Shown here: positions 14,654-30,825 of the stretch, piece after piece
How positions within the stretch are numbered: position 1 is the first letter of the stretch
Layout: each line of letters begins with the position of its first letter
IMG/VR virus record: IMGVR_UViG_3300042340_000084
Coordinates: 1 to 30,825 of that record
Source of the DNA: a virus
Direction: 5' to 3' (one strand)
Length of the DNA stretch: 30,825 nucleotides
Notes under the pieces: generated by a model
The model's database searches: none
The model's input: only the letters and a program-made list of their open reading frames with translations
What the model was told of the DNA's origin: nothing
Made by a program: the position numbers and the translations under genes

Positions 14654-15922
14654 TCAGGTGTTGTCATCCTTCAGAGCGCGGAACGCATCGGAGCGAACGA
14701 CCTTCGCGTCGAGGCGCATCTCGCCGAGGTAGCCGATCTGGCCGTTGCCGGCGTACAGTTCGTTCAGCACCTGCACGCTCATGCCCGTGCGCTGCGCGAC
14801 CACCATGTGCTGGAAGTCGCCGATCACCGCGTGGATCTGGTCGTTGACATTGCCGAGCGTGGGTGCCCACGGCGTGACATAGACCGGGATTCCGAGCAGA
14901 CGGTCGGGCGTGCCGGCCTGGAAGGAAGGCTCCCAGAGGTAGGCCACCGAGGCAGCACCAGAGGTCGTGGTCGTGATCTTCTCTGTCAACTTGCGGACGG
15001 CCGTCAGGAACGACTGGCTCGTGACGATCGCGCACGACGGGCTCTTCAGATACTTCATCGGCAGGCTGTAGACCCAGTCGATGAGTTCGTCGGCGGTGAG
15101 CGTGCCGTCGGTCGCGAGCGTGGTAGCGGTGCCGAGCGTGGCGCTCTTCAGACCTTGCGGCTTGTTGGTGCCGTTCCCGTGCCACAACTGGTACTCGATC
15201 GACTGGCCGAAGAGGCGACCCATGCGCTGCGCGACCATGCTCTCGACGCTGAAGTCAGCACCGCGAGCAGGAGCGTCCTGCACGAGTTCGCGCGAGACCT
15301 TGACCACGCGGCGCAGCGAGTTGCCCGTGAAGGTCGTGTTGGTGAAGTTCGGCGTGTACTCATCGACCGAACCCGCTTCGCCGGCCCAACCTTCGGTGTC
15401 CAGTTCGCTCGAGGCGAAGTCGCCCTCGAGCGTGAAGTTGGTCGTGAAGTTGCCGACATCGATCTTGCGGCAGAGGTTGTAGATCGCGGTCTCGAGTTCC
15501 ACGCTCTTCTGCAACTGCGCGTAGAAGCCGGCCGACGGGAGGTACTGGCCGTCGCCCGAGCCTGCGGCGATCGCGCGAGTGTCGAAGTCGCGGCGGTGGC
15601 CGTTCTTCAGGTAATCGGCGAACCGAGCCTCGTACTGCTCGCCGATCTGCGGAGCGAACGAGCGAGTCTCGACGCGGGCCGGAGCCTCACGCTCGACCAC
15701 GACCACGCCGTGCGAGCTCTTGGCGGCGCGCGAGTTCAGGTCGGCGATCATGTCGCGACGCTTGGCGAGAGCGTCGTACTGCTTGCTCTTCTCCTCGTAC
15801 TTGGCCGACATCTTGGCCGCGTCCTCTTCGGTCGCGCCCTCCATGCCTGCCACCATCTCCTGCATCTCCGCGTAGAGGGCACCCATCTTCTCGACGAGTG
15901 CCTTGTAGGTATCACCTTCCAT
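14654..15922 (-). CDS. Major capsid protein, HK97 fold, full-length form (MCP2)
   Basis: The 422-residue protein has an N-terminal coiled-coil delta/scaffold domain (about 1-75: MGALYAEMQEMVAGMEG, KYEEKSKQYDALAKRRDMIAD), a linker where the prohead protease would cut, and the HK97-fold body from about residue 88 (QIGEQYEARFADYLKNG). Body features include SVELETAIYNLCRKIDVG, SRELVQDAPARGADFSVESM, GNGTNKPQGL and the late VQVLNELYAGNGQIGYLGEMRLDAKV. A strong AAAGGAGG ribosome site precedes the ATG, fitting high expression. A second HK97-fold protein lies immediately upstream. Confidence 0.92.
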   Translation of the reverse strand: MEGDTYKALVEKMGALYAEMQEMVAGMEGATEEDAAKMSAKYEEKSKQYDALAKRRDMIADLNSRAAKSSHGVVVVEREAPARVETRSFAPQIGEQYEARFADYLKNGHRRDFDTRAIAAGSGDGQYLPSAGFYAQLQKSVELETAIYNLCRKIDVGNFTTNFTLEGDFASSELDTEGWAGEAGSVDEYTPNFTNTTFTGNSLRRVVKVSRELVQDAPARGADFSVESMVAQRMGRLFGQSIEYQLWHGNGTNKPQGLKSATLGTATTLATDGTLTADELIDWVYSLPMKYLKSPSCAIVTSQSFLTAVRKLTEKITTTTSGAASVAYLWEPSFQAGTPDRLLGIPVYVTPWAPTLGNVNDQIHAVIGDFQHMVVAQRTGMSVQVLNELYAGNGQIGYLGEMRLDAKVVRSDAFRALKDDNT

Positions 15923-15948: not shown

Positions 15949-16998
15949 TTAGTTGCTCACGACCTGGATCAGCGACCGAGGGTCGATGATGTTTCCGCCC
16001 ACGCGGACGGAGGCTCGTAGCACGACTTGTCCGGTGGCCGCAGCCACCTCGTTCAGACGCTCGACCTGCACACCGTCGCGGTGCATGGCGAGCACATATG
16101 AGTCGAAGTTCACGAGGAAGCAGAGGACGTCGCCTGCGGTGCTGTGCGTGAAGTGCGGCGTGTAGATCGCATGGCGACCGAGGATCTTGGCGAATGCCTC
16201 GGGCGTGCTCTCGTCGGGAGCGTGCACCGCTGCGCTGTTCGCGCTCTGGTGCAGGAAGTCTGCGATCGACTCGTCACCCATCACCCAGACAGCCGATGGG
16301 AAACTCGACGCTCGAATCTTCTCGACACAACGAGCGAGCGACGAGTAGTTGATGTGATCGACCGCGCTCGATCCGCCATCGATGACGATCTGTGAAGTGT
16401 TCTGCGCGTAGTAGTAGATGCCTTGGCACTCGCGACGATTAGCGACTGTCGAAGTAGCAGGGCGACCGACGATGATCTGCCTCTCGATCTCGCTCGTGAG
16501 CTTCTTCGAGAGAAGGTCGGCGAGCATCGCTTCGACCGATGCGCTTCCCATCGATTCCTCGATGAGTTCCTTCGAGACCGTGACATTCACGCCGACCTCG
16601 TGCAGCGTGATCTTCGCGTTCTCGTAGTTGTAGGAGTAGCCGGCCGGAGCAGTACCAGAGACCGTGAAGCGAGGCAGAGCGAACGCCGCGCTAGCAAGAT
16701 CAGCGCGCGTGCCTTCCTCCTTGTAGGTGATCCGGTTCGTGGTCTCGTTCGATTCGGTGTATCCAGTCACCGACAGCGTCGGCCCGTTCACCGTCACCTT
16801 GCGGCATCGCTTGATGATGTAGTTGGTGTCGAAGCCATCGCCGATGATCTCGCTCCAGTTGTCCGGAGCGATGTTCGAGGCCGAGTCAGTCACGCCGCGC
16901 TTCTCCGCGAGGATCTGCGCGTCCTCGCTGCTGATGCCGTGAGCACCTCGCAGGAGGTAGCGGTAGAAGGCTTGCCGATGGGCCGACTTGAAGTCCAT
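15949..16998 (-). CDS. Second HK97-fold capsid protein (MCP1), lacks a delta domain
   Basis: The 349-residue protein starts at the capsid body: FKSAHRQAFYRYLLRGAHG (3-21) with an ISSEDAQILAEKRG segment, both usual just after the HK97 delta domain. It continues with HEVGVNVTVSKELIEESMGS, a SVEAMLADLLSKKLTSEIER helix and a C-terminal VERLNEVAAATGQVVLRASVRVGG, matching the order in MCP2. No scaffold-like coiled coil precedes it. The ATG at 16998 is preferred (GAGGAT seven bases upstream); a TTG at 17034 would add twelve residues. It lies between protease and MCP2 and may form vertices or co-assemble with MCP2. Confidence 0.85.
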   Translation of the reverse strand: MDFKSAHRQAFYRYLLRGAHGISSEDAQILAEKRGVTDSASNIAPDNWSEIIGDGFDTNYIIKRCRKVTVNGPTLSVTGYTESNETTNRITYKEEGTRADLASAAFALPRFTVSGTAPAGYSYNYENAKITLHEVGVNVTVSKELIEESMGSASVEAMLADLLSKKLTSEIERQIIVGRPATSTVANRRECQGIYYYAQNTSQIVIDGGSSAVDHINYSSLARCVEKIRASSFPSAVWVMGDESIADFLHQSANSAAVHAPDESTPEAFAKILGRHAIYTPHFTHSTAGDVLCFLVNFDSYVLAMHRDGVQVERLNEVAAATGQVVLRASVRVGGNIIDPRSLIQVVSN

Positions 16999-17030
16999 GT
17001 CCTTATCCTCGCATCTTTGAGTGTCGAAGG

Positions 17031-17918
17031 TCAACGCTTGGGGCCAAGCCAGATACGCCGACGAACCATCGCCGGCACGGGCGCGCTCGCCGTCCAGAGG
17101 TCGAACGAGCGGCGATCGACCACGAGGTCGGTAGCCGGGTTCGCCGGGAAGGTCACGGCCGAGACCTCGTGGAGTTCGAGATCCTCGATCATCCGGTGCA
17201 CCTTGCCGTCCCGCTCCTCGAAGCGATCCGAGCGCACGATGAAGCCGAAGGACATCGCCGAGACCACGCCCGAGCGCACCGCGACGCGAGCGTCCCGGCC
17301 GACCTGGGTGTCGATCGGCTCCATCTCGACCACGAGGCCGTGCTCATCCTCGGCGAGCCGGAGGCTCCCGGCCGTCGTGCGAGCGATCGGCATCGATGCG
17401 TCGTGGTTCCAGAGGGCGACCACATCCGGCTTCTCCCGGAGCGTCCGCTCGAACGCGCCGCGCACGATGATCTCGTGGGCGTATCCGATCGGATACGGGG
17501 TCTCGGTCACGCTCGCGTAGCCGCGGAGGATCTCCCGGCCATCGTCTGCACGCACTTCCATCGCCTGCCCGTAGCGTCGCTCCATGATGTCGCCTCCTGC
17601 GCGGTCTACGCGCTCCAGAATGTTTCGAGCAAAGGCCCATCCGGGATCTCCGCCCCAGAGTGCCCACGCGATCCGGCCGGCCGATGGGAAGCCCTCTTCA
17701 CCCGGCCCCCACCCTTGGCCCTGCTTGTCCACCTCGTGTCGCGCGAAGTACGAGGCCATGCGCTGCACCGTGTCGATCGAGAGCGCGCGACCGTTCGCGA
17801 TGTCACGCGCTCGGGCGACCCCGACCTCCGTCCCGCCCCGCCCGTGCTCGCGCCGCCACGCGAGGCCACGGTCGGCCTCCTCGCGCATCGAGGCGTTAGG
17901 CTCGAAGGAGTCAGCCAC
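17031..17918 (-). CDS. Prohead protease with N-terminal extra domain
   Basis: The 295-residue protein has two parts. Residues 1-105 are a phage domain of unknown function with the motif VGVARARDIANGRALSIDTV and KQGQGWGPGEEGFPSAGRIA. Residues 112-295 are an HK97-type serine protease that matures the capsid: RGYASVTETPYPIG, candidate catalytic His172 in ALWNHDASMP and Ser223 in SAMSFGFIV, then LHEVSAVTFPANP. A ribosome site (AGGAGG) lies eight bases before the in-frame ATG at 17585, so a separate 184-residue protease, the usual family length, could also be made. The start at 17918 overlaps the portal gene by eight bases. Confidence 0.88.
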   Translation of the reverse strand: MADSFEPNASMREEADRGLAWRREHGRGGTEVGVARARDIANGRALSIDTVQRMASYFARHEVDKQGQGWGPGEEGFPSAGRIAWALWGGDPGWAFARNILERVDRAGGDIMERRYGQAMEVRADDGREILRGYASVTETPYPIGYAHEIIVRGAFERTLREKPDVVALWNHDASMPIARTTAGSLRLAEDEHGLVVEMEPIDTQVGRDARVAVRSGVVSAMSFGFIVRSDRFEERDGKVHRMIEDLELHEVSAVTFPANPATDLVVDRRSFDLWTASAPVPAMVRRRIWLGPKR

Positions 17919-19389
17919 CCTCGGCCTCCGTGCACATCGAGATCGCGATCGCGACCGCCTGATCCTGATCGTATCCCTCGTCGAGGAGCCGACCGATCTT
18001 GCCGCTCACGCACTCCTGAACCTCGGGCGAAAGGTCGGCAAGCCGCTTTGACTTGCGCTTCGCGTAGCGGCCCCTCGAGTCCCGAGCGGTCGGAGCCGTA
18101 GCCGGCACGGGAGCCGGGGCCGTGAGCGGCGACTGGTCGCCCGACTTGCCGGCGTTCGGATCGACGATCGCCAGGTTCACGGGCGCGCGAGCCGCATCGC
18201 CGCCGTCGATCGGCGCGTAGTTCTCACGCTCGCGCACCTCATTGATAGTTAGGAAGCCATTGTTGAGCGCGGTCGAGTACGCCGCGAATCGCGACGCTAG
18301 GTCGCCTCGGAGGAGCGCGTCGAACGAGATGTGCGTCTCGATCGGCTCGCCTTCGCGCACGAGCTTGCGCGCGCACTCCTCCTCAAAACGCGAGGCCCAG
18401 TTCGCAAGGCAATGCTTCACGAACTCGGCATCGGCCTGCTCGGCACTCGCGTACGAGGTCTTCGTCGCGTCGCCGACCATGTGCACCGGGACGTTGAACG
18501 CGGCCGCGATCTGCGATCGACAGAACGAGCGCAACTCGACGAGTTTCGCTTCCTCGGGATCGACCGAGACCTTCTCCCACGAGTAGCCGCTTTCCAGGAT
18601 CGCCACGCGGCCGGCGTTCTCCGCCCCGCCCGTGATCGACTGCCACGACTGGCGGAGCCGCTTGAGTGCTTCCTCGGTGAGCGTGCCCGTCACCTTGATG
18701 AGGCCCGCCGGCCGTGCGCCGTTTCGGAAGAACGAGGCGACGAACTTCTCCGCCTCGAGTTCCACGCCGATGATGTTCCGCACGAGGTAGATCGGAGTCT
18801 CGCCGAGGAGACCGTCGAGGCTCGGCGCGCGGAGGTGGAAGATGTCGTACGCCTGCCACACCTGATCGGTGCTCTTCGCGATGCCCCACCGAGACGATGT
18901 GTACGAGTAGACGGGCATCCCGTCCGGGCCGCGCGAGACCTCGACCGAGTCCGCGCGCAACTTGTGCAGGCCGACCACGCGGCCGACAGCATCGCGCTCG
19001 ATCACGGCATAGGCGTTCCCGTAAAGGAGGCAGTCGAGGAGCATCGACTCGCGCCAGACCATCGCACCCATGTACGGGTTCGGCTCGATGTTCAGGAGCC
19101 GATAGAGCGGATGCTCGCGAGCGGGAACCGGGATCCCTCCCTCCCGGCGCATGACTCGCCACTCCATCCGCGCCACGCTCTGGGAGATGAGCCGCGTGCA
19201 GGCGTAGACCGTCGGAGCCTCCCTCGCGGCCTCCGGCGTGATCGAGCGGCCCGTGTCGGCGTAGGTCGAGATGTACGCCTGCGCCCCGCCCGGAGGCTGT
19301 CCGATCGGCGAGCGGTCGATCACCGCGCGCTCTTCGAGCGTCGGCTCGGGAGTCGGGGCGGGTCGGCGGAACCAGTCGATCAGAGCCAT
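17911..19389 (-). CDS. Portal protein, HK97 family
   Basis: The 492-residue protein forms the dodecameric DNA channel at one capsid vertex. Family signs include SITPEAAREAPTVYACTRLI near residue 50, LLDCLLYGNAYAVIERD, GLLGETPIYLVRNIIGVELE, FFRNGARPAGLI, LVELRSFCRSQIAAAFNVP and FLTINEVRERENYAPIDGGD. The C-terminal part is Pro/Ala-rich and then carries the helical segment LSPEVQECVSGKIGRLLDEG. The ATG at 19389 has a GAGAGG site and overlaps the large terminase stop by ten bases. Confidence 0.94.
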   Translation of the reverse strand: MALIDWFRRPAPTPEPTLEERAVIDRSPIGQPPGGAQAYISTYADTGRSITPEAAREAPTVYACTRLISQSVARMEWRVMRREGGIPVPAREHPLYRLLNIEPNPYMGAMVWRESMLLDCLLYGNAYAVIERDAVGRVVGLHKLRADSVEVSRGPDGMPVYSYTSSRWGIAKSTDQVWQAYDIFHLRAPSLDGLLGETPIYLVRNIIGVELEAEKFVASFFRNGARPAGLIKVTGTLTEEALKRLRQSWQSITGGAENAGRVAILESGYSWEKVSVDPEEAKLVELRSFCRSQIAAAFNVPVHMVGDATKTSYASAEQADAEFVKHCLANWASRFEEECARKLVREGEPIETHISFDALLRGDLASRFAAYSTALNNGFLTINEVRERENYAPIDGGDAARAPVNLAIVDPNAGKSGDQSPLTAPAPVPATAPTARDSRGRYAKRKSKRLADLSPEVQECVSGKIGRLLDEGYDQDQAVAIAISMCTEAEGG

Positions 19390-21044
19390 AGGATTCCTCT
19401 CTCGGCGTACGGTGTCGCTTGTGATACCGTCGGCGCGGCATCGAGTGCTACCGCGAGTGCCACGATTCCCGCGACCACGGGGTCGATCTTCTCCGTCGAG
19501 CGTCGCTTGCTCGGTCGCGGGTTCGAGTTCGCGTCGAGTTCCACGACGCAGTTGGACATTGCCCAAGTGAGAACCGGGTTGCCGTCGTGCCGGAGCCGAT
19601 GGTTCGTCACCATCGCCTCCCATCGCTTCGTCGGCTCGGCCATGTAGTAGTACGACTGGGGCACGCGCTTGAGCCGCAGGCCGTCGGCCTCGAGTTGCTG
19701 CGCGAGGCCGCTCGCGTTGTACGGGTCGTACCCGACCGCCTGCACCTTGTGCTCGCCGACGATCCGCAGGATCTCCCGCCGCACGAACTCGTAGTCGGTC
19801 GCGTCGCCCGGTGTAAGCCTCATATGCCCCTGCCGGCTCCAGTCGAGGTAGGGCACCTTGTCCCGCTTCTGCCGACGCTGCGCGCCTTCCTCGGGCGCGA
19901 AGGCCCACGAGCGCACCCACGCCTCGTCCTTGTCGAGCCATACGGCCGTGAGCGCGGTGAGGTCGCTCGTCTCGCCCAAGTCGATCCCGAGGTAGCACGG
20001 GAGGCCGGCGAGCCGGGACTCGTCGAATTCCAGTCGGCACTTGTCCCAATCCGCCATGCGGAGCCATCGGTTCGAGGCGGAGACGTGCTGGCAGAGGTAG
20101 TAGGTTCGGAACGGGGTCTCCATCGAGGGTTGCTCCTGCGCCTCCTTGCACTTCTCGGCGTAGTACCCCTCGTGCACCGTGTGCCCGAGACTCGGCGCGC
20201 ACTTGCGCCAGGTCTCTGGACTCGTCCAATCGTCTCCATCGCTCGCCGAGTAGACCACGGGCAAGAAGTACGGGTTGTCGATCACGCGGTCGCGCACCTT
20301 GCACGCATAGTCGTACATCTCGAACTCAAGACTCTCGCGGAGCGTGCCGGCGGTCGTGATCGTCACGAGCATCGGTTGCCGACGCGCGCCGACGCTCGTC
20401 TCGATCGCCTCCCACAGCTCGCGCCGATTCTCCATCGCGTGCACCTCGTCCGCGATGCACGCGCTCGTATTCAGGCCGTGCGCGCTCGGAGCCTCGCTCG
20501 ACATCACCTTGTAAACGCCGGCCGTGCTCGGCACGATCACTCGGTGCTGATAGACCTCGGTGCGGCTCTCGAGCATCGGCTCGGCGCGCACCATGCGCTT
20601 CGCCGCCTCGAGGCATCGGCCCGCCTGCGCGCGGTCGGCCGCGATCGAGATCACCTCGGGCGTAGGCTCATCGTCGGCGAGAAGGTGATACAGCGCGAGG
20701 GCCGCTCCGAGTTCGGTCTTGCCACACTTGCGCGGGACAAGGATGTGCACGCGACGATACCGCCTCGTGCCGTCCGGGCGGATCCATCCGTAAGCGTTGG
20801 CGATGAGTGCCTTCTGCCACGGGAGCAGCGTGAACGGTAGGCCGGCCCAAGTGCTCGTGGTGAGTTTGCACGCGGTCTCGATGAACCGGATCACATGGAG
20901 CGCGGCCTGCTCGTCGAATGTGCAGTTGCCTGCGGTCGCGATCGCGTCATAGCCGGGGATCGTGTTCCACTTCGCGGCCGGGTGCTCGGCCGACTTCTTC
21001 GGCTTACGCGCGACGCTTGGTAAAGATGTCTTCTTGCGGGGCAT
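19380..21044 (-). CDS. Terminase large subunit
   Basis: The 554-residue packaging motor has an N-terminal ATPase: Walker A PRKCGKTE (104-111) and Walker B ACIADE (195-200), with a coupling TITTAGT segment near 228-234. The C-terminal RNase H-like nuclease shows YLGIDLGETSDLTALTAVW (351-369) with metal-binding Asp355 and Asp361, and a final EKIDPVVAGIVALAVAL segment. It is the YmfN/HK97-like type that pairs with P27 small subunits. The ATG at 21044 follows an AAGGAGC site and overlaps terS by 41 bases. Confidence 0.95.
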   Translation of the reverse strand: MPRKKTSLPSVARKPKKSAEHPAAKWNTIPGYDAIATAGNCTFDEQAALHVIRFIETACKLTTSTWAGLPFTLLPWQKALIANAYGWIRPDGTRRYRRVHILVPRKCGKTELGAALALYHLLADDEPTPEVISIAADRAQAGRCLEAAKRMVRAEPMLESRTEVYQHRVIVPSTAGVYKVMSSEAPSAHGLNTSACIADEVHAMENRRELWEAIETSVGARRQPMLVTITTAGTLRESLEFEMYDYACKVRDRVIDNPYFLPVVYSASDGDDWTSPETWRKCAPSLGHTVHEGYYAEKCKEAQEQPSMETPFRTYYLCQHVSASNRWLRMADWDKCRLEFDESRLAGLPCYLGIDLGETSDLTALTAVWLDKDEAWVRSWAFAPEEGAQRRQKRDKVPYLDWSRQGHMRLTPGDATDYEFVRREILRIVGEHKVQAVGYDPYNASGLAQQLEADGLRLKRVPQSYYYMAEPTKRWEAMVTNHRLRHDGNPVLTWAMSNCVVELDANSNPRPSKRRSTEKIDPVVAGIVALAVALDAAPTVSQATPYAERGILWL

Positions 21045-21486
21045 CCTTCGCTTGCTCCTTCGCCGCGCCGATTCGGGCACGACCGACTGGGGTGAGTCCG
21101 AACTCGCTCATCATGCGCCGGAGTCGATCACCATGCTCGGCGAGCACCGCACTCCACGGGTTTCGCTTCACGGTCACGCGGTCGCCTCCCTCGACTCGGA
21201 TCACCTCGCCCTCCTCGGCGAGTCGCTTGCGAGCCTCCAGGTAGCGCGACCATGTGTCGCACATCAGAGCGAGCGCGTCGCGGTCTCCGCTCGAGATGAT
21301 CTTCATCGCGGCCACGCGCGGAAGCCAGTCGGCCCACGCAGCACGACCGACCTCATCGAGCCAGTCGGGGCATTCGGGTAGCACCTCGTCGGCCGGCGGC
21401 TCGGACTTGGCTCGACCGGACGCGCGCCAGTTGCCGGACAACTTCAAAGCCGCCGAAGGTTTAGGGGCAGGGCCGCGTAGTCCCAT
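21004..21486 (-). CDS. Terminase small subunit, P27 family
   Basis: The 160-residue protein starts with the P27 signature MGLRGPAPKPSAALKLSGN, then ECPDWLDEVGRAAWADWLPRV and SGDRDALALMCDTWSRYLEA, and ends with a NPWSAVLAEHGDRLRRMMSEF helix followed by FGLTPVGRARI. It recognises phage DNA at the packaging site and recruits the large subunit. The ATG at 21486 is preferred over the adjacent GTG; GGGAGG lies eight bases upstream. The 193-base gap before it holds the phased repeats, the likely recognition site. Confidence 0.93.
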   Translation of the reverse strand: MGLRGPAPKPSAALKLSGNWRASGRAKSEPPADEVLPECPDWLDEVGRAAWADWLPRVAAMKIISSGDRDALALMCDTWSRYLEARKRLAEEGEVIRVEGGDRVTVKRNPWSAVLAEHGDRLRRMMSEFGLTPVGRARIGAAKEQAKDAPQEDIFTKRRA

Positions 21487-21679
21487 CACAAGCCTCCCTT
21501 TGGGCCGAAAAATGGGGGACGCGCGTACGAGCCTGTGGGGGGGGATATCACGCCGTCCCCTTTCAAACTTTTATGACCCCTACCCCATCTTACGGCATCT
21601 TGCCGCGATCTTGCGCGATCTTGCGGCCATCTCCGCGATCTTGCACGCATTCTCGGGCCAGAATCGGGCCTCGCGTGGC
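21487..21679. other. Non-coding gap before terS: candidate cos/packaging region
   Basis: This is one of only three sizeable non-coding gaps. It contains a G8 run (21537-21544), an AT-richer patch (21560-21575), and a block of ten-base repeats (21587-21655). Lambda and HK97-like phages place cos directly upstream of terS, and the preceding gene here is an HNH nuclease, as in cos-type relatives. I see no start codon with a ribosome site apart from that of terS. The exact cut site cannot be read from sequence alone. Confidence 0.5.
21587..21655. repeat. Helically phased ATCTTGC iterons
   Basis: On the plus strand ATCTTAC/ATCTTGC units start at 21587, 21597, 21608, 21618 and 21638, with degenerate units at 21629 (ATCTCCG) and 21649 (ATTCTCG). 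Successive spacings are 10, 11, 10, 11, 9 and 11 bases, close to one DNA turn. On the minus strand the core reads GCAAGATCGC. Such phasing puts all copies on one face of the helix, fitting cooperative binding by a small-terminase ring. Confidence 0.8.
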
Positions 21680-22393
21680 TCATAATGCGTCCTCGCGATC
21701 GATCCCGCTCGCGTCGATGCTCGCTGCGATGTTCCGCGCTGCCCCGAGCATCTCGACCATGCGCTCGCGCGGCAGCCGGCGCGCCTCGATGCGCTTCGCG
21801 AGATCGTCGAGGCTCGCGCGCACCACGAGCACGCGCACGCTCGGGAACTCGTCCCGGATCGCGCGCGCCTCGTCGGCGTTCGTCGTGATCCACCAGAGCC
21901 GACCTGGGATCCACCCATCTCGCCAAGCCTCAAGCACCGAGCGTCGCAGGCGCACCATGAACGCGAGCGCGCCCGTGTCGCCGTCTGGCTCGCCGTTCCA
22001 GTCCCGACCGCGCATCGCGGCGAGCACACGGTCGTGATCCCACACGAAGTCGCCATCGGCCTTGTGCGCGTTCACGAGCGTGGTCTTCCCCGATGCCGGC
22101 GCGCCGAGCACGACCGTACCCTCGGTCGGGAACCGTCCGCGTTCGGCCTGCCGCTCGCGCCCCTCGATCGCGCTCTTCTTGCGGTGGCACACGGCGCACA
22201 ACGGCTGAAGGTTCTCGGGGTCGTGGAGCGAGCCGCCGTTCGCGATCGGGATCTTGTGGTCGATGCACACCGCATCGGTGAGCCGTCCCGCCGCCTTGCA
22301 CATCCGGCAGAGCGGCTCGCGCTCGCGCTCGTTCACGGACTGGAGCGTCCATGCGCGGTTCTGATGCTTCACCGTTGGCGGCTTGCGCGGCAT
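21680..22393 (-). CDS. HNH endonuclease fused to a P-loop NTPase/kinase-like domain
   Basis: The 237-residue protein joins two domains. Residues 20-80 are a zinc HNH nuclease: CRMC (C29/C32), AVCIDHKIPI with Asp45-His46, NLQPLCAVCHRKKS with Asn61 and C66/C69/H70. Residues 91-220 are a P-loop domain: TVVLGAPASGKTTLVNAH with Walker A 97-105, DFVWDHDRVLA, GRLWWITTNADEARAI, and a late basic KRIEARRLPRER resembling the lid of polynucleotide kinase-like enzymes. HNH proteins next to terminase stimulate cos cleavage in HK97-like phages. The ATG at 22393 gives a weak ribosome site and a 25-base overlap with the upstream gene. Confidence 0.87.
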   Translation of the reverse strand: MPRKPPTVKHQNRAWTLQSVNEREREPLCRMCKAAGRLTDAVCIDHKIPIANGGSLHDPENLQPLCAVCHRKKSAIEGRERQAERGRFPTEGTVVLGAPASGKTTLVNAHKADGDFVWDHDRVLAAMRGRDWNGEPDGDTGALAFMVRLRRSVLEAWRDGWIPGRLWWITTNADEARAIRDEFPSVRVLVVRASLDDLAKRIEARRLPRERMVEMLGAARNIAASIDASGIDREDAL

Positions 22394-22575
22394 AGTTCTT
22401 GCTCGAGGTAGCGGGTAGCGAAGAGGCCGAGATCGACCGGGAGATGCTTGCACACGGCGCGCGCCCGCAGGCGCACGGCACGCGGTACGCGCGGCGTGGC
22501 CTTGGGGTCGAGGAGGTCGTAACAGAATCGACGCACGGCCTCAATCGAGCGAGCCTCTTCTTCGGTCGTGCTCAT
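22369..22575 (-). CDS. Hypothetical helical protein, 68 aa
   Basis: The family is not recognised. The sequence is largely helical (TEEEARSIEAVRRFCYDLLD, then VPRAVRLRARAVCKHLP and LFATRYLEQELCRA), with three cysteines and no membrane segment. Its ATG at 22575 overlaps the membrane-protein stop as ATGA, and its end overlaps the HNH gene start. It is one of a string of small coupled genes between the replication and packaging blocks. Confidence 0.65.
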   Translation of the reverse strand: MSTTEEEARSIEAVRRFCYDLLDPKATPRVPRAVRLRARAVCKHLPVDLGLFATRYLEQELCRASRQR

Positions 22576-29997: not shown

Positions 29998-30825
29998 GCG
30001 CGGCCCCCTTCCGGTCGAGCGTCGAGCACCCGGAAGGTCGTGCGCGTCGCGTACCGCTCGGCGAGTTCCGGGTTGTCGGCGAGCAGTCGCTTGGTGTCCA
30101 CGCCCGACCGCGACCGCTCGCGGTAGGAGACGCGCCACCCGCCGCCGGCCCCGATCTCGGCCTGCCCCAGAGCGGTGAGGAGCATCGCCTTCGCATTGTC
30201 GAGCGCGCGATCCGCCGCCGTCGCCGACTCGCGCGCCACGATGTACGCCTCCATGATCTCGCTCGGGATGTGCGTCGCCGCGCCCGACTGCCGGGTAATG
30301 CGCGCCGCCGTGTCGAGCGTGAACGCGCCCTCGGGTTGCGTGTCGCCGACGATGTGCTTCTCCCACCACTCGGCCGCTCTGGCCTCGATCTCGTGGCAGT
30401 AGCCCTCGTCGCGCGGAACCTCGTACAGCGAGAACGAGAGATGGCTCCCGTCCAGCACGGCCACATAGGCGCGTTGCGACTCGGCGCAAAGCATCTGATG
30501 CTGAACCTGGAGCATGACGGCCTCGGGCACGGCCGAGGATCCGGGCGCGCCGTAGCCGACGGGCGATCCGTGGCACTTCGCCTCGACGATGTCCGAGCCG
30601 CGCTCGAAGCGATCGAGCATCCCGTCAACATTCGCGCGCAGCACGCCGCGCACGAAGGTGCTCGACGGGGCCACGACCTTGCGGCCCAGTTGCTCGCTCG
30701 CCATCGCGAGGAGCGCAGGCTCCACGACGCTGCCGATCTTCGCGGCCTCGCTCGGGTATCCCGACTCAAGCTCCACGCGACCAGTCTTCTCGGCCCACAC
30801 ATCGACGGCCGACTTCCAACGCGAC
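29994..30825 (-). CDS. YqaJ-family viral recombinase (exonuclease), C-terminal part; N-terminus at 1-321
   Basis: This copy covers residues 26-301 and runs open to the window end, because the ATG lies in the other terminal copy (position 321). It includes all nuclease motifs: GSVVEP, the NVDG aspartate, VEAKCHG (E106/K108) and VMLQVQHQM (about 127-135), with a late helical domain. It differs from the left copy by one residue (Ser for Ala in LESGYPSE), plus synonymous changes. Its TGA overlaps the ERF GTG. Exonuclease plus annealing protein is the classic phage recombination pair. Confidence 0.93.
   Translation of the reverse strand, partial: SRWKSAVDVWAEKTGRVELESGYPSEAAKIGSVVEPALLAMASEQLGRKVVAPSSTFVRGVLRANVDGMLDRFERGSDIVEAKCHGSPVGYGAPGSSAVPEAVMLQVQHQMLCAESQRAYVAVLDGSHLSFSLYEVPRDEGYCHEIEARAAEWWEKHIVGDTQPEGAFTLDTAARITRQSGAATHIPSEIMEAYIVARESATAADRALDNAKAMLLTALGQAEIGAGGGWRVSYRERSRSGVDTKRLLADNPELAERYATRTTFRVLDARPEGGRA
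30579..30825. repeat. Terminal redundancy, right copy
   Basis: This 247-base stretch repeats positions 1-247 with six mismatches, all inside the exonuclease gene. Joining 30578 to 1 keeps the reading frame intact, so the genome closes as a circle of 30,578 bp. Confidence 0.95.

Follow-up and report, generated by a model that had tools for sequence, protein, structure and literature searches.

A putative HK97-type cos site with a helically phased repeat array on its HNH side in the genome of an uncultured virus

The gap between the genes for an HNH endonuclease and for the small terminase subunit (terS) of an uncultured virus contains short repeats at helical spacing, which raises the question of what this array belongs to and which protein, if any, would recognize it. 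The window, that is the whole stretch of DNA analyzed here, comprises 30,825 nucleotides (positions 1 to 30,825 of IMG/VR record IMGVR_UViG_3300042340_000084). Its two ends (1-247 and 30579-30825) carry a shared stretch of about 247 bases that is nearly, not fully, identical, and this imperfect circular overlap indicates one genome of about 30.6 kb. The gap extends from 21490 to 21679 and, in agreement with the original prediction, the array has as its neighbors terS (21004..21489, PF05119 Terminase_4, phrog_83) and the HNH gene (21680..22453), both on the minus strand; terL, encoding TerL_ATPase and TerL_nuclease domains (phrog_9), follows terS on the same strand at 19380..21041. The HNH motif of the gene adjoining the gap is intact, and the protein carries a fused P-loop domain that, in its predicted form, most resembles polynucleotide kinases and related small-molecule kinases. 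This protein, called HNH-kinase in the following, is predicted to be the right-end packaging nuclease, which we regard as likely. Farther along the minus strand, each of two adjoining genes (14654-15922 and 15949-17034) has a match to phrog_10, the family of major head proteins.

The array occupies 21587..21655, and its unit in the sense of the genes (minus strand) is G(C/T)AAGAT(C/G), or GYAAGAT(C/G). As originally predicted, five exact ATCTTRC units, all on the plus strand (starting at 21587, 21597, 21608, 21618 and 21638), are accompanied by two degenerate ones, ATCTCCG at 21629 and ATTCTCG at 21649, with successive spacings of 10, 11, 10, 11, 9 and 11 bp. The array stands out in comparison with shuffled sequences, and its register is found again in relatives. 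When the region was dinucleotide-shuffled 2000 times, four identical 6-mers or 7-mers never formed a helically spaced chain, and 20 whole-window shuffles gave no such chain of 6-mers. A four-unit chain of 6-mers or 7-mers is also absent from every other 81-bp tile of the window. ATCTTRC itself occurs 12 times in the window compared to 4.3 ± 2.1 expected, a number reached in 0 of 100 shuffles, with scattered single matches and no second cluster elsewhere in the window. The period of the GAT cores is 10.25-10.5 bp with a mean resultant of 0.95-0.96, which bears out the phasing on one face of the helix that had been proposed. A coding origin of the repeats was rejected, since a period of 10-11 bp is not a multiple of three. 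Likewise, a small gene running through the region was rejected: the open reading frame of 65-71 codons that leads from the HNH stop codon (ATGA overlap) to terS has variable sites spread evenly over the codon positions (10/9/8), in contrast to 4/3/23 in the HNH gene, non-synonymous variation affects 16 of its codons and synonymous variation 4, and the frame is shifted in one relative (L028). Judged by this pattern of variation, the array region is non-coding. Phased short direct repeats are also a feature of the iterons at plasmid and phage replication origins; however, the array described here lies at a packaging cut with a fixed register to it, and its neighbors are the HNH-kinase gene and terS rather than an initiator gene.

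The nature of the gap became apparent from the ends of related contigs. A search of IMG/VR for terS relatives gave 32 loci, and many of their contigs share a homologous first base about 45 nt ahead of the terS start. Fourteen contigs with a TerS at least 70% identical start no more than 2 nt from the inferred left end, which lies about 45-100 nt before terS, 12 of them exactly on it. L001, which has the sequence of the same species as the window, begins with GGCTCGTACGCG, corresponding to window position 21533 on the minus strand; L013, L020, L022, L023 and L026 begin with TGCGCGTACGCG (in L023 as the variant TGGGCG), and L006, L008 and L009 with GGTTGATAAGCG. In L006-L009, L014-L016 and L029, for which there are no crossing contigs, the cut base was placed by agreement between contigs and by motif geometry. 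At the right end five contigs stop at GAT, one of them with one extra base: L008 and L009, contigs of 29,807 and 31,132 bp that each have both chromosome ends, terminate in GGACGGAT, L045 (32,174 bp) in GTGCGAT, L044 (29,101 bp) one base further, and L125, from a further lineage, in GGCCGAT. Contigs crossing the site read GGACGGAT-ATCCCCTCGCGCC-TGCGCG, and the window reads GTGAT-ATCCCCCCCCACA-GGCTCG at the junction. The middle 13 bases are thus kept in the crossing contigs and the window and are missing at both ends of the linear contigs. During library preparation 3' overhangs are trimmed and 5' overhangs are filled. Since the missing bases show the pattern of trimmed 3' overhangs, the comparison of contig ends with crossing contigs suggests that ATCCCCCCCCACA (21534..21546, minus strand) is very probably a 13-nt 3' cohesive end, with the top strand cut between 21534 and 21533 and the bottom strand between 21547 and 21546.

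Virion ends are reflected only indirectly in contig ends, which might instead represent assembly breaks at a strain-variable spot, as the variation of the left-flank sequence between lineages and the crossing of the site by some contigs could suggest. However, base-exact ends recur in many metagenomes and in several lineages that differ in sequence at this place, the 13 bases are missing without any k-mer overlap although ordinary breaks leave overlaps rather than a gap, and the geometry matches that of phages whose deposited records end there. Moreover, positions 1-31 of the public contig L032, a distant relative, are Illumina adapter and mark a physical DNA end; this junction falls at the predicted base, exactly 53 nt after the G-tract of a sister contig. 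Assembly breaks are therefore a very improbable explanation. A headful (pac) site was rejected as well, because the ends are unique in 14 left and 5 right contigs and not permuted. The gap almost certainly contains a cos site, and the candidate packaging site of the original prediction is upheld by contig ends that map to this gap and by its G8 run (21537-21544), which is located inside the inferred cohesive end. As read from these sequences, it appears to be a cos site of the HK97 type with fixed ends between HNH and terS.

A second element of this site is a G-tract, GGGGTAGGGG (CCCCTACCCC on the plus strand), at 21577..21586 (minus strand), which adjoins the array on its 3' side and whose first base lies 53 nt before the top-strand cut. 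Next to it an AT-rich patch, ATAAAAGTTT (21565..21574, minus strand), is conserved as NNNAAANTTT in most lineages of the clade. In other lineages of relatives the distance from the G-tract to the right contig end is 39-40 nt, which puts the tract at the same place as in the window once the 13-nt overhang is added. A similar arrangement was found in named phages when the ends of their deposited records were taken as chromosome ends, with a G-rich tract whose start is 53 nt away from the right end in D3, RootBeer and Chymera. The corresponding distance is 51-56 nt in HK97, HK022 and Zirinka and 45 nt in phiC31, and at a similar position the tract of ArV2, Sfi21 and A2 is C-rich. When IMG/VR was searched with the DNA motif GGGGTANGGGGNNNNAAANTTT alone, which includes the AT patch, 36 stretches were obtained, of which 14 belong to this clade. 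In at least nine of the remaining 22, terminase genes are located directly downstream (L195, L196, L201, L204, L210, L211, L214, L218 and L225, the call for L218 being based on sequence likeness to L211). These loci represent three TerS/TerL combinations, characterized by Terminase_4, by Terminase_2, or by a small LexA-like ORF together with a TerL of the Terminase_6C type. Since the terminase families downstream differ, the G-tract follows no single TerS family, and it is possible, as far as motif matches can indicate, that GGGGTANGGGGNNNNAAANTTT represents a general cos marker. In the open literature, which defined the scope of our search, no description of the G-tract or of the cos element was found. 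In HK97 (L052), HK022 (L189), D3 (L190) and mEp235 (L056) an AT-rich block resembling AATGAGAA..AT..CATT is present just upstream of the G-tract, where it occupies the place of the window's array.

On the other side of the cut, a candidate recognition element for TerS, CCCCCATTTTT (C5AT5), is located at 21508..21518 (minus strand), i.e. at +16..+26, with terS starting at +45. The comparison is with HK97, whose TerS threads DNA through its ring and has a minimal site at +15..+29 downstream of the cut (PMC11331095); this HK97 site has C3GA and a T run. In L006, L014-L016, L029 and L097 a run of C4-6 followed by an A/T-rich run at +15..+26 is comparable to HK97 CCCGATTTTTTT, and in L010-L028, where the N-terminal segment of TerS also differs, GAACGGTTTT or GGACGGTTTT is found at the position of the element. 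The predicted structure of the window TerS, a helical protein (pLDDT 74), has HK97 TerS as its best match, with a Foldseek probability of 0.99 but an E value of 0.1, and VIA-align gave a Z of 9.3 and an rmsd of 3.2 over 96 residues. A phmmer comparison of TerS with solved structures gave no direct sequence match, and the structural match comes only via the predicted model, in which the fold of the window TerS bears a moderate resemblance to that of HK97 TerS. Among bacterial sequences TerS has a single, distant match (35% identical), in a Phycisphaerae MAG.

The resemblance to HK97 TerS bears on the proposal that the repeats wrap around a small-terminase ring, for which we found no support. 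The GAT cores lie at -56, -66, -77, -87, -98 and -107 from the top-strand cut, so that the array, about 55-110 bases from the inferred cut, is on the HNH side and thus opposite to the side that a DNA-threading ring like that of HK97 reads. TerS could still bind the array besides or instead of the +16..+26 element, with DNA curved around the ring as in lambda cosB or SPP1. Phasing on one face over about five turns is what such wrapping needs, and other TerS proteins have been modeled with DNA wrapped around them ('nucleosome' models; PMC9611059). However, we consider this unlikely given that HK97 TerS, the closest fold, passes DNA through its ring and recognizes the terS side (PMC11331095), that the element at +15..+26 depends on the TerS type, and that the presence of the array is independent of this type, being absent in lineages with a TerS 70-81% identical to that of the window.

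The distribution of the array points to its other neighbor. It is present where the HNH protein is 86-89% identical to that of the window, including L010-L028, in which TerS has a different N-terminal type and an identity of no more than about 70%. L044/L045 (TerS 80%, HNH 57-60% identical) and L097-L099 (TerS 70%, HNH 39-46% identical) lack the array, and it is reduced in L046/L047. Over the six lineages on which this comparison is based, the co-occurrence is suggestive at most of an array that tracks the HNH-kinase gene and not TerS, and since the two are adjacent, plain linkage could explain it. The GAT cores are found at -57, -67, -77, -88 and -98 in L010/L012 and at -78, -88, -99 and -108 in L046, so that in three lineages, the window's included, their register to the cut is kept within about 1-2 bp while the flanking bases change. 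This constancy argues against a neutral origin, in which slippage in the tail of cos on the HNH side would have produced an array that has no binding partner. Such an origin would agree with the confinement of the array to one clade, its absence from sister lineages and its reduction in L046/L047, but in view of the fixed register between variable flanks it appears quite unlikely. A host HU/IHF-like bending or nucleoid protein bound to the array might in turn bend cos, which is the role of IHF in lambda. This would suit the phasing and have a counterpart in the AT-rich block upstream of the G-tract in HK97, HK022, D3 and mEp235. However, predicted intrinsic curvature, calculated from wedge angles, does not reach consistently high values among the lineages that have an array, and the conserved core is a specific GAT rather than an AT tract, which makes a host bending protein decidedly unlikely. 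Intrinsic curvature as a conserved property was rejected in its own right, since it is high in places in the window but not in its relatives.

Taken together, the array is probably a part of cos function, and we consider it fairly likely that the repeats form one arm of an HK97-type cos site, the arm on the HNH side, at which HNH-kinase would dock, with TerS on the other side. The end positions, the missing 13 nt, the constant register, the G-tract at fixed distance and the element on the TerS side are the sequence features consistent with this arrangement. Whether HNH-kinase itself binds the array appears evenly balanced. HNH-kinase is favored over TerS as the partner of G-tract and array, in keeping with its position, with the co-occurrence and with the reported finding of Garcia and colleagues in 1997 that gp3 of phage A2 binds its downstream cos region. 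In packaging orientation (minus strand) the proposed site would consist of the HNH-kinase gene, the array (-107 to -56), the G-tract (-53) and the AT patch, followed by the bottom-strand nick GAT^ATC, the overhang ATCCCCCCCCACA, the top-strand nick, the TerS element (+16 to +26) and terS (+45). An HK97-like TerS ring would read the element on the terS side and bring in TerL, and HNH-kinase would dock on the G-tract. In this clade it would also dock on the phased GAT cores, whose placement on one face of the helix could let several protein units line up toward the nick. Docking would place the nuclease at the nick sites, and concatemers would be cut leaving 13-nt 3' overhangs. The Lactobacillus phages A2, Lrm1 and LF1 provide counter-evidence, since a homologous HNH-kinase gene is found directly before cos at their right ends (split into ORF60/ORF61 in A2), but a C5-6...G5-6 (C-rich/G-rich) pair takes the place of GGGGTAGGGG and the GAT array, both of which are lacking; the phiC31 tract at 45 and the C-tracts of ArV2 and Sfi21 also count against the scheme.

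To our knowledge, the TerS site is the only one that has been defined in HK97 cos. We tentatively propose, as a possibility that these sequences would allow, that cos sites of this type are two-sided, with TerS reading the terS side and the packaging HNH protein reading a G-tract at about -53 that is common to phages with unrelated TerS families, and that the phased GAT array extends the HNH-kinase site in this clade. If true, packaging HNH proteins would have a specific DNA address, and the cos ends of uncultured phages could be located by a sequence rule; the same geometry would predict cos ends and overhangs of metagenomic phages from sequence alone, and the G-tract at fixed distance together with a clade-specific array that follows HNH would be a testable address for HNH positioning at cos.

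The window shares with HK97, HK022 and D3 the gene order HNH-cos-terS-terL, the probable 3' type of overhang and a G-rich tract at a distance of 51-56 nt from the right end; its predicted TerS fold moderately resembles that of HK97. It differs from these phages in its probable overhang of 13 nt (10 nt in HK97; PMC9410871), the kinase-like domain of its HNH protein, its TerS of the PF05119 family and the additional phased GAT array between HNH and G-tract. The cosQ-cosN-cosB site of lambda is similar in having recognition elements on both sides of the cut and repeats near the nick. However, the lambda TerS repeats (R1-R3) are on the terS side together with IHF, and those of the window are on the other side, its overhangs are very probably 3' and an HNH gene adjoins. 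A cosB of the lambda type, with TerS repeats on the terS side, was accordingly rejected for the window, where the array extends from -56 to -107 on the HNH side. According to its record, phage Sfi21 (L192/L193) also has conspicuous repeats at cos, together with double dyad symmetry and a 3' overhang of 15 nt.
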